DNA of 64,000 nt from Promicromonospora sukumoe 327MFSha3.1 (lineage in GTDB: Bacteria > Actinomycetota > Actinomycetes > Actinomycetales > Cellulomonadaceae): NCBI RefSeq assembly GCF_000385135.1, contig NZ_ARQM01000010.1, positions 1,054,001-1,118,000 of the forward strand. The letters are read 5' to 3'. A model generated the notes under the pieces. That model was not told the DNA's origin. It ran no database searches and saw only the letters and a list, made by a program, of their open reading frames with translations. The first letter of the stretch is position 1; the number at the start of each line of letters is the position of its first letter. This document shows, piece after piece, positions 60,979 through 62,925 of this stretch. The position numbers and the translations under genes were made by a program.

Positions 60979-62346
60979 TCAGACCGCGAGGTAGTCGAGC
61001 AGGTCGGAGCGGGAGACCACGCCGAGGGCCTTGCCGCCGTCGGTCACGAGCAGTGCGGTCTCGTCGGCGAGGGCCGCGCGCAGCGTCCCGACCGGTTCGT
61101 TGACGCCGATGAGCTGCAGGGGGCGGCCGATCAGCCCGCCCACCTCGTCCGAGAGGTTCGCCTTGCCGGCGAACACCCCGTCGAGCAGCTCGTCCTCGTG
61201 CACGGCGCCGGCGATCTCGCCGAGCACCACGGGCGGTTCCGCGGTCAGCACGAGCAGCTGGGAGACGCCGGACCGGGTCATGCGGTCGATCGCCTCCCGC
61301 ACCGTGTCGGTCTGGTGCACGTAGAGCAGGGGCGGGGTGCGGTCCGCCTTGGCGGCCAGCACGTCCGCGACGGTGTGGTCCTCGATGGCGGGCGCGAACC
61401 CGTAGGACCGCAGCCAGGTGTCGTTGAAGATCTTGCCGAGGTAGCCGCGGCCGCCGTCGGGCAGCAGGACCACGACGACGTCGTCCTCGGTGAGGTCGCG
61501 GGCCGCCCGCAGGGCGGCGACCACGGCCATGCCGCTGGAGCCGCCCACGAGGATGCCCTCCTCCCGGGCGAGCCGGCGGGTCATCGCGAACGACTCGGCG
61601 TCGCTCACCGCGATGATCTCGTGCGGCACGCTCGGGTCGTAGGCGGACGGCCAGAAGTCCTCGCCCACGCCCTCGACCAGATACGGGCGGCCGGTGCCGC
61701 CGGAGTAGACCGACCCCTCGGGGTCGGCGCCGACGATGCGAACCCTGTCGCCCGAGACCTCGCGCAGGTAGCGGCCGGTGCCGGTGATGGTGCCGCCCGT
61801 GCCGACGCCGGCGACGAAGTGCGTCACGCGGCCGTCGGTGTCCCGCCAGATCTCCGGGCCCGTGGTCTCGTAGTGCGACCGGGGGCCGTTCGGGTTGGAG
61901 TACTGGTCGGGCTTGAAGGCACCGGGGATCTCGCGCACCAGCCGGTCGCTCACCGAGTAGTACGACTCGGGGCTGTCGGGCGCGACCGCCGTCGGCGTCA
62001 CGACCACCTCGGCGCCGTACGCGGTCAGCACGTTGCGCTTGTCCTCGCCCACCTTGTCGGGCAGCACGAAGACGCAGCGGTAGCCGCGCTGCTGGGCCAC
62101 CAGGGCGAGGCCGACGCCGGTGTTGCCCGACGTGGGCTCGACGATGGTGCCGCCGGGCAGGAGCTTGCCCTCGCGCTCGGCCGCGTCGATGATGCGGCCC
62201 GCGATGCGGTCCTTGGAGGACCCGCCGGGGTTGAGGTACTCGAGCTTGACCAGCACGGTGGCGCTGGTGACGCCCTCGGTCACGTGGGTGAGCCGGACCA
62301 GCGGGGTGTTGCCGACGAGGTCAACGACAGAATTGACGTACTGCAC
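60979..62346 (-). CDS. cbs: Cystathionine beta-synthase (with CBS domain pair)
   Basis: A 455-residue PLP enzyme that condenses homocysteine with serine to cystathionine, the first step of reverse transsulfuration. Catalytic part: VGNTPLVRLTHV, the PLP lysine in PGGSSKDRIAGRII, PTSGNTGVGLAL, GVGTGGTITGTGRYL, GEDFWPSAYD. Two CBS motifs (about 335-455: HQTDTVREAIDRMTRSGVSQLLVL, NEPVGTLRAALADETALLVT) give allosteric control, perhaps by SAM or nucleotides. The haem N-terminal segment of animal CBS is absent. GTG start with AGGAAGAG. First gene of the operon with metB and preceded by a cysteine leader peptide. Confidence 0.92.
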   Translation of the reverse strand: MQYVNSVVDLVGNTPLVRLTHVTEGVTSATVLVKLEYLNPGGSSKDRIAGRIIDAAEREGKLLPGGTIVEPTSGNTGVGLALVAQQRGYRCVFVLPDKVGEDKRNVLTAYGAEVVVTPTAVAPDSPESYYSVSDRLVREIPGAFKPDQYSNPNGPRSHYETTGPEIWRDTDGRVTHFVAGVGTGGTITGTGRYLREVSGDRVRIVGADPEGSVYSGGTGRPYLVEGVGEDFWPSAYDPSVPHEIIAVSDAESFAMTRRLAREEGILVGGSSGMAVVAALRAARDLTEDDVVVVLLPDGGRGYLGKIFNDTWLRSYGFAPAIEDHTVADVLAAKADRTPPLLYVHQTDTVREAIDRMTRSGVSQLLVLTAEPPVVLGEIAGAVHEDELLDGVFAGKANLSDEVGGLIGRPLQLIGVNEPVGTLRAALADETALLVTDGGKALGVVSRSDLLDYLAV

Positions 62347-62366
62347 CTGTTTCTCTTCCTGTTCTG

Positions 62367-62386
62367 CACGCGCGACGGCGCGCGTG
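62367..62386 (-). promoter_or_regulatory. Hairpin between the Cys leader peptide and cbs
   Basis: A perfect 8-bp stem (CACGCGCG, loop of four, CGCGCGTG) sits 20 nt before the cbs start and about 27 nt after the leader ORF stop. A ribosome paused on the Cys codons could alter folding of this hairpin or of upstream sequence and so change access to the cbs ribosome site. Confidence 0.55.
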
Positions 62387-62412
62387 GGGGACTGACGGAC
62401 CGGCGTGGGTGG

Positions 62413-62445
62413 TCAGTGACAGCAACAGGAGAGGTGTGCGAGCAC
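62413..62445 (-). CDS. Leaderless ten-residue leader peptide with Cys-Cys-Cys
   Basis: GTG 62445 begins ten codons, VLAHLSCCCH (start read as Met), then TGA; codons 7-9 are TGT-TGC-TGT. TACAGT lies six bases before the GTG, so the message should start at the GTG itself. It is 66 nt before the cbs start, in front of a cysteine-making operon. In mycobacteria, poly-Cys upstream ORFs of this kind mediate cysteine-responsive attenuation; the same role is inferred here. Confidence 0.75.
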   Translation of the reverse strand: MLAHLSCCCH

Positions 62446-62451
62446 GCCGCA

Positions 62452-62457
62452 ACTGTA
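62452..62457 (-). promoter_or_regulatory. -10 box of the Cys leader / cbs-metB operon
   Basis: TACAGT on the minus strand, six bases before the leader GTG. No convincing -35 element is visible. Confidence 0.6.
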
Positions 62458-62471
62458 GCGGCGCGGGCCGC

Positions 62472-62795
62472 TCAGTGCGAGTGCGCGATGCCCAGCTCGT
62501 GCATGCGCTCGTGCTCCTCACGCTCCTTGATGCGCTGCGCGATCCGCGCCTGGACCTCGGCCCGGCGCAGCGGCGGCACGGTCTTGGGCGGCTGACGGCG
62601 TTCGGGGAGCTCGTCGAGCAGGCGGGTCACGATGTCCGCGATCTCCTCGGTAGCGCGCTCCACCGGGTCGCGGGTGGTGTCGTTCACCTTGGTCACGCCC
62701 GTGACCTTGCGCACGAACTGCAGCGCGGCGGCGGTGATCTCCTCGTCGGTGGCGGCCGGTTCGAGGCCGCGCAGCGTGGTGATGTTTCGGCACAT
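62472..62795 (-). CDS. DUF2277 protein
   Basis: A 107-residue DUF2277 member: MCRNITTLRGLEPAATDEEI at the N-terminus, AALQFVRKVTGVTKVN and a Glu/Arg-rich C-terminal helix (AEVQARIAQRIKEREEHERM). The N-terminal Cys2 and FVRKVTG segment are the family signature; function unknown. TACCGT six bases before the ATG fixes the start. Only 27 bp separate its stop from the leader ORF's GTG, so the cbs promoter overlaps the end of this gene. Confidence 0.88.
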   Translation of the reverse strand: MCRNITTLRGLEPAATDEEITAAALQFVRKVTGVTKVNDTTRDPVERATEEIADIVTRLLDELPERRQPPKTVPPLRRAEVQARIAQRIKEREEHERMHELGIAHSH

Positions 62796-62801
62796 GCTCC
62801 G

Positions 62802-62807
62802 ACGGTA
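62802..62807 (-). promoter_or_regulatory. -10 box of the DUF2277 gene (leaderless)
   Basis: TACCGT on the minus strand, six bases before the ATG at 62795. Confidence 0.5.
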
Positions 62808-62848
62808 CGCCGGACGTCGCCCGTAGGGGAGGGGGCGTCGTCGGCCCC

Positions 62849-62925
62849 GAGGTGCGCTTCTACCCAGTCATTCGGCCCGAAACCCAGGTGATTCCGGGCC
62901 GAATGACTGGGTAGAAGCGCACCTC
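62849..62925. repeat. Long palindrome, family member 2 (31-bp perfect arms)
   Basis: Bases 62849-62879 pair perfectly with 62895-62925 around a 15-base loop. The outer part (GTGCGCTTCTACCC) is identical to the element at 43264-43338, and inner blocks (CGGGCC, GAAT) are also related. It lies between the stop of the MFS gene and the DUF2277 promoter, so it may end the transporter transcript. Confidence 0.88.

Follow-up and report, generated by a model that had tools for sequence, protein, structure and literature searches.

The cbs-metB operon of Promicromonospora sukumoe 327MFSha3.1 lies behind a ten-codon open reading frame (ORF) that contains three consecutive Cys codons, and comparative and folding evidence makes it probable (we would say roughly 0.8) that this leader is a cysteine-responsive translational attenuator of the two genes. 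The locus belongs to a 64-kb window, that is, the whole stretch of DNA analysed (64,000 nucleotides), from a genome of 6.25 Mb in 18 contigs. The original prediction had described a GTG start six bases after TACAGT, ten codons with three consecutive Cys codons, a stop and a hairpin 20 nt before the cbs start, and had interpreted the whole as a cysteine attenuator. All of these parts were found on the minus strand, in the order TACAGT, TGCGGC, GTG CTC GCA CAC CTC TCC TGT TGC TGT CAC TGA (Table 1). The leader GTG is at 62445 and the TGA stop at 62415-62413, and 66 nt separate the leader from the cbs GTG at 62346. The hairpin does end 20 nt 5' of that GTG; it is nested in a predicted long-range helix and carries no U-tract. 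The attenuator interpretation is itself supported, in the form of translational attenuation, by the conservation of the leader, by its potential to pair with the cbs Shine-Dalgarno (SD) region and by the masking results presented below.

Table 1. Features of the cbs leader and operon in the window (positions are those of the whole 64-kb stretch).
Feature	Position	Strand	Remarks
-10-like hexamer TACAGT	62452..62457	-	6 bases (TGCGGC) 5' of leader GTG
Leader ORF VLAHLSCCCH, 10 codons + TGA	62413..62445	-	in 11/11 cbs-bearing Promicromonospora genomes
Cys codons TGT TGC TGT, presumed cysteine sensor	62419..62427	-	invariant in 11 Promicromonospora leaders
Putative anti-SD stretch CTCTCCTGTTGCTG within leader ORF (Leu-Ser-Cys-Cys codons)	62420..62433	-	predicted helix 2
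Hairpin spanning leader stop codon	62391..62417	-	2/9 pairs changed on both sides
Perfect 8-bp GC-rich hairpin CACGCGCG-CCGT-CGCGCGTG	62367..62386	-	2/8 pairs changed on both sides
cbs SD region CAGAACAGGAAGAG, predicted partner of anti-SD stretch	62353..62366	-	best SD match AGGAAG 62360-62355
cbs, cystathionine beta-synthase, 455 aa, GTG start	60979..62346	-	NCBIfam TIGR01137 equivalog, 593.8 bits vs cut-off 510.25
metB, Cys/Met-metabolism PLP enzyme, 391 aa	59766..60941	-	Pfam PF01053; NCBIfam PRK07811 611.6 bits vs cut-off 513

The position of TACAGT predicts a leaderless transcript, the 5' end of which would be at or adjacent to the leader GTG. Across the leaders compared, TAnnnT lies 6-7 nt 5' of the GTG or ATG start codon. 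A -35-like hexamer is absent at the window leader, where a generic sigma-70 promoter scan returned no site and no -35-like hexamer paired with a -10-like one. An Rfam search of positions 62000-62900 gave four matches at E values up to 10, all far below gathering scores. A long inverted repeat is present at 62849-62925, between a DUF2277 gene and a transporter-like ORF; its 34-nt arms are 97% complementary and enclose a 9-nt loop.

In the window, metB begins 37 nt after cbs, and the CBS protein shares 96% identity with its Promicromonospora thailandica counterpart. In all 32 other leader loci, metB also follows cbs, at a distance of 29-202 nt (judged from tblastn ends). The same gene order occurs in 56 of the 61 leader-less loci of our first set, so the operon is more widespread than the leader. 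Conversely, the upstream DUF2277 gene recurs, within the 32 leader loci, in Promicromonospora alone, which shows that the leader is tied to cbs and not to its neighbourhood. The operon had been taken for one of reverse transsulfuration. The cbs product matches the TIGR01137 equivalog, but the best NCBIfam name for the metB product is cystathionine gamma-synthase, and the assignment is thus no more than likely. Adjacency to cbs makes reverse transsulfuration the likelier role of the pair, the family name alone not being decisive. No match to serine acetyltransferase (PF06426) was detected in the genome.

In the mechanism that we infer, the transcript would begin with the leader GTG or right next to it, and translation of the leaderless ORF would be initiated by a 70S ribosome. 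As long as Cys-tRNA is abundant, this ribosome would complete the leader and depart, after which the Ser-Cys-Cys codons would pair with the cbs SD, with two small hairpins stacked in between, and cbs-metB would be poorly translated. When Cys-tRNA is scarce, ribosomes would dwell on UGU-UGC-UGU and hold this pairing open, exposing the SD in the cell; cysteine shortage would then induce cbs-metB, whose output would be cysteine made from homocysteine. As the key structure is probably the long-range pairing between the Ser-Cys-Cys codons and the SD, control would be translational.

We searched both strands of the window for leaderless mini-ORFs, defined as TAnnnT, 4-9 nt, ATG or GTG, and 4-35 codons including a Cys-Cys pair, and obtained exactly one match, the cbs leader. 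Over 80 whole cbs loci, the Cys-Cys scan returned 18 matches, 16 of them directly 5' of cbs. Leaderless ORFs with CC or C.C were found in 26 of 146 cbs upstream stretches (two duplicates included, eleven in the wrong orientation), while 100 rounds of dinucleotide shuffling of these stretches gave 0.04 matches on average and never more than 1. The same count for other residues is 11 for Arg, 4 for Leu, 4 for Ser and 0-2 for the rest. Once orientation was corrected and the start, length and spacing rules were slightly widened, 27 of the 146 upstreams had a leader. Removing the duplicates L086 (= L005) and L089 (= L006), as well as L042, left 24 leaders in 144 distinct stretches; the L042 candidate, a Cys ORF located 310 nt 5' of cbs, was counted at first and then removed as dubious. 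A further 72 upstreams provided nine leaders, bringing the total to 33 in 216 distinct cbs upstreams.

These 33 leaders comprise 11 from Promicromonospora and 22 others, 20 of which are in Microbacteriaceae or relatives. The 22 are distributed among Agromyces, Cryobacterium, Herbiconiux, Naasia, Humibacter, Leifsonia flava, another Microbacteriaceae genome, Occultella (two leaders, Ruaniaceae) and the family that we denote f5 (five genomes). Within Promicromonospora, 11 of 13 genomes carry this cbs, and every one of the 11 has the leader. For part of these genomes the genus was assigned through two of them, whose cbs loci are the same as in Promicromonospora records. Conserved Cys codons and a maintained frame were what the original prediction expected of related genomes, and both were observed: all 11 Promicromonospora leaders, including two that have lost one codon, preserve UGU-UGC-UGU and the frame, and the 22 others encode different peptides that retain Cys codons near the stop (in a few cases C.C instead of CC). 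Between genera the peptides, 8 to 14 codons long, diverge widely except for the Cys codons and, often, a following Arg.

The leader is absent from all 59 cbs loci of other genera in Promicromonospora's own family (the long cbs matches outside Promicromonospora, minus one partial match). A class-wide search found a cbs match in 161 of 196 genomes. We examined 68 of these loci, namely the 28 best matches and 40 picked for genus diversity, with L187 excluded as its orientation is indeterminable. A leader was present in five of the six f5 loci examined (further f5 matches exist), versus none of the 62 other class-wide loci.

The fold of the window leader reaches -48 kcal/mol (z = -3.1), and 3 of 200 shuffles were equally good. 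In this predicted fold, CUCUCCUGUUGCUG of the Leu-Ser-Cys-Cys codons pairs with the SD region CAGAACAGGAAGAG, and the cbs start pairs with the first leader codons. Over the 11 Promicromonospora leaders, 92.7% of pair cells are paired, versus 22-46% in slid controls. Double changes affect four pairs, each within one of the two inner hairpins; 24 of 500 shuffles reach this number. In the long-range helix between Cys codons and SD, no double change occurs within Promicromonospora and 7 of 13 pairs are invariant; covariation is missing there because the pairs hardly vary. Further pair types in the 11 leaders are not above shuffles (472 of 500 as high), and the RNAalifold covariation term for seven leaders is slightly unfavourable (+0.94). 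The predicted long-range helix is conserved, yet without covariation proof. Leifsonia flava exhibits a similar match in other letters, GUGUUGUC with GACAACAC, and in other genera the leader ORF start often joins the pairing.

When duplexes with cognate and non-cognate partners were compared, the putative anti-SD paired better with its own cbs initiation region than with the regions from other genera in six of seven Promicromonospora leaders. The result is also clear for L009, L010 and L027, the 3 of 17 leaders of other genera that beat all foreign partners; in the remaining 14, direct pairing of the Cys tract does not. Compared with shuffled initiation regions, the duplexes stood out little: p was 0.06 for the window and ranged from 0.01 to 0.245 across the seven Promicromonospora leaders. 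As the duplex test was unclear for most leaders of other genera, we adopted masking by a stalled ribosome as the general test: 30 nt were masked to mimic a ribosome positioned at the first codon of the Cys cluster, and the openness of the SD region was measured.

In this model, the mean gain in openness of the SD region on masking was 0.34 for the 11 Promicromonospora leaders, against 0.05 for shuffles, and 0.17 for the 22 others, against 0.01. The gain exceeded the leader's own shuffle mean in 11 of 11 Promicromonospora leaders and in 18 of the 22 others (Wilcoxon p = 0.001 and 0.0002, respectively, computed from rounded values and with kinship ignored). For single leaders, the gain was matched by 4 of 60 shuffles for the window leader and by 8 of 60 for each of L090 and L178. 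Masking had no effect in 4 of the 33 leaders (L030, L057, L181 and L183) and almost none in L013 and L024. A mask placed at the leader stop, and partly also at the start, opens the SD about equally (19 of the 33 leaders run). Masking is thus not specific to the Cys codons, and under the model the regulatory signal must be ribosome dwell time, which is beyond what folding can reveal.

Codon choice within the leaders is strongly biased. UGU makes up 71 of the 92 leader Cys codons, with 22 of 33 coming from Promicromonospora and 49 of 59 from the other leaders, whereas the cbs genes of 24 leader loci use it for 2 of 27 Cys codons (Fisher p = 4.5e-11, kinship ignored). Consecutive UGU codons are complementary to AACA-type stretches found at several cbs SDs. 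The UGU excess could be caused either by complementarity to the SD or by UGU being the rarer codon in these genes. Cys codons doubling as sensor and anti-SD would account for the use in leaders of a codon that is rare in genes.

Other explanations of the leader must be weighed against translational attenuation. It may act at the level of transcription, with ribosomes that are delayed at the Cys codons blocking Rho-dependent termination within the leader. The C-rich stretch after the leader stop fits this option, which was raised in the excerpted text of PMC1262725 for the terminator-less Cys leaders of Mycobacterium, P. acnes and Bifidobacterium longum cbs. However, that text terms its own Rho prediction weak, and Rho would leave the SD-sequestering structure superfluous, although the fold beats shuffles and responds to masking; we therefore regard this explanation as rather unlikely. 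Classical attenuation, with the GC-rich hairpin serving as intrinsic terminator, is scarcely conceivable. The hairpin is strong and perfect, but it stands 20 nt before the cbs start and adjoins the SD, no T-run follows it, and a scan of 62200-62700 detected no terminator-like site. Because it has no U-tract, the hairpin was rejected as a terminator.

The peptide rather than its codons might also matter, as a small Cys-rich product with a function of its own such as metal or redox binding. CC and C.C motifs are capable of binding metals, which speaks for such a role, but beyond the Cys codons and the frequent Arg the peptides differ too widely between genera, over lengths of 8 to 14 codons, for this to be other than very improbable. 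In addition, the leaders favour UGU, a codon seldom used in the cbs genes, and this indicates selection on nucleotides. Finally, an ORF of ten codons is short enough to arise by chance in a spacer, but the specificity of the scans and the conservation of the leader contradict this origin, the likelihood of which is practically negligible.

We also looked for further Cys leaders of the same genome at the sir and cysK loci. Upstream of sir lies a leaderless Cys-rich ORF, MTKAARISLVAHRHEMPMCAMPTCACDRCRSCQP (L163/L152, minus strand, sir being around 742650 of contig C11), which ends in MCAMPTCACDRCRSCQP and has recognisable relatives, with three to six Cys codons, in all 13 Promicromonospora genomes. 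The sir product belongs to the sulfite/nitrite reductase family (Pfam PF01077 and PF03460) and scores below every NCBIfam cut-off shown; we named the gene sir because a gene of the PAPS-reductase family comes next. The cysK leader (L162, contig C17), located 284 to 188 nt 5' of cysK, is an SD-led Cys-rich ORF ending in MCVTGCCHRGCL, with a TTG or an ATG as possible start after GGAGG. Its end, MC.T.CC.RGCL, was found in six of the eight genomes examined (of 13 Promicromonospora), the other two having single Cys codons only. The Cys-Cys scan gave no leaderless match at these two loci, where direct reading reveals a C.C-type leaderless leader (sir) and an SD-led one (cysK). A second long inverted repeat, of another sequence and with 30-nt arms, is located upstream of the sir leader (L152, 3097-3164).

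The history of the cbs leader was approached through a quick maximum-likelihood tree of 141 CBS proteins (CBS only, metB not being in the tree), which is midpoint-rooted and has many weak inner forks. The 11 Promicromonospora proteins (support 100) are placed among Agromyces and Leifsonia flava (98), within Microbacteriaceae, and 23 family mates, taken from the 59 loci above, form a separate group (99). The f5 proteins group with Microbacteriaceae. On the simplest reading of this tree, leader, cbs and metB probably entered Promicromonospora jointly by transfer. Regulation in cis that needs only ribosomes and Cys-tRNA could travel with its genes, and the tree suggests that the leader did so. 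Three loci (L008, L014 and L018) lack the leader though they are inside leader-bearing branches. The cbs genes of L066 and L069, filed as Vibrio cholerae 35D and Sporosarcina beigongshangi, are placed among Arthrobacter, a case of contamination or mislabelling.

Loci with and without leader also differ at the cbs start itself. TAnnnT is found 5-9 nt 5' of the cbs start in 43 of the 61 leader-less loci of the first set (L019-L084 among them; shuffle mean 1.5), versus none of the 33 cbs genes behind a Cys leader. In those 43 loci cbs itself is thus probably leaderless. A -10-like hexamer occurs at the cbs start in 13 of 59 loci of the family sample and in 35 of 63 of the class sample, and leaderless cbs is probably common among leader-less loci, while far from general. 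In Agromyces humi (L008), a -10-like hexamer is followed almost immediately by an initiation region of the A. ramosus type, the mini-ORF block being missing; the mini-ORF may have been lost or never gained, both being compatible with this arrangement.

Taken together, these data allow a wider proposal, which we put forward tentatively as it falls somewhat short of an even chance. Leader, cbs and metB would form a self-contained cysteine-sensing cassette, without trans-acting regulator and mobile between families, Promicromonospora having received its copy from a Microbacteriaceae relative. Control would be gained or lost through the transcription start, cbs being either leaderless or behind a leaderless Cys mini-ORF, never both. 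The Cys codons would serve as sensor and anti-SD at once, and in this genome the same gauge would be wired separately to cbs, sir and cysK.

If the attenuator reading is correct, ribosomes gauge cysteine not just in mycobacteria but in a further group of actinobacteria, where natural variants offer a comparative series. What the leader does could be tested directly on related loci that have or lack it, one of them being the Agromyces locus devoid of the mini-ORF block. In the mycobacterial case, Canestrari and colleagues reportedly found in 2020 that a paused ribosome unmasks a downstream ribosome-binding site. Papers citing that work describe the attenuation by mycobacterial polycysteine leaderless sORFs as dependent on cysteine supply (excerpts of PMC9031893, PMC13236596 and PMC9094748). 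The cbs leader resembles these sORFs, as described there, in being a short, by prediction leaderless, ORF with contiguous Cys codons upstream of the genes it would control. It differs in taxon and operon (cbs-metB), in that its Cys codons are themselves the predicted anti-SD, and in being known from sequence and folding.

That poly-Cys upstream ORFs are established in mycobacteria, as the original prediction stated, agrees with the excerpts of PMC4633059 and PMC1262725. The former reports leaderless Cys-rich uORFs (Shell et al. 2015), among them the cysA2 uORF, which is leaderless, as predicted for the cbs leader, and like it carries a C-terminal Cys cluster and lies 5' of a sulfur gene; the operon and taxon are different, and ribosome profiling in M. 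smegmatis is available there whereas our evidence is computational. The latter (Seliverstov et al. 2005) describes leaders with a run of Cys codons 5' of Bifidobacterium longum cbs and of the cys operons in Mycobacterium and P. acnes. These candidates share with ours a short ORF, a Cys run near the stop, a position before cbs in one case and the lack of a terminator, but in the excerpted text they have no conserved hairpins and Rho is considered, whereas we predict an SD-sequestering fold. Compared with trp and ilv attenuators, end-product codons in the leader ORF are a common feature, but no terminator was found at the cbs leader. Among the matches listed for titles and abstracts of the open-licence literature, there was no cysteine leader of Promicromonospora or Microbacteriaceae. 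This kind of leader is already known, including before cbs; new are the present instance, the predicted fold and the apparent transfer. Finally, the Streptomyces lividans metL leader, filed as methionine-dependent in the excerpt of PMC8079986, ends in RCMCRRMCAF, which would fit a cysteine leader just as well.
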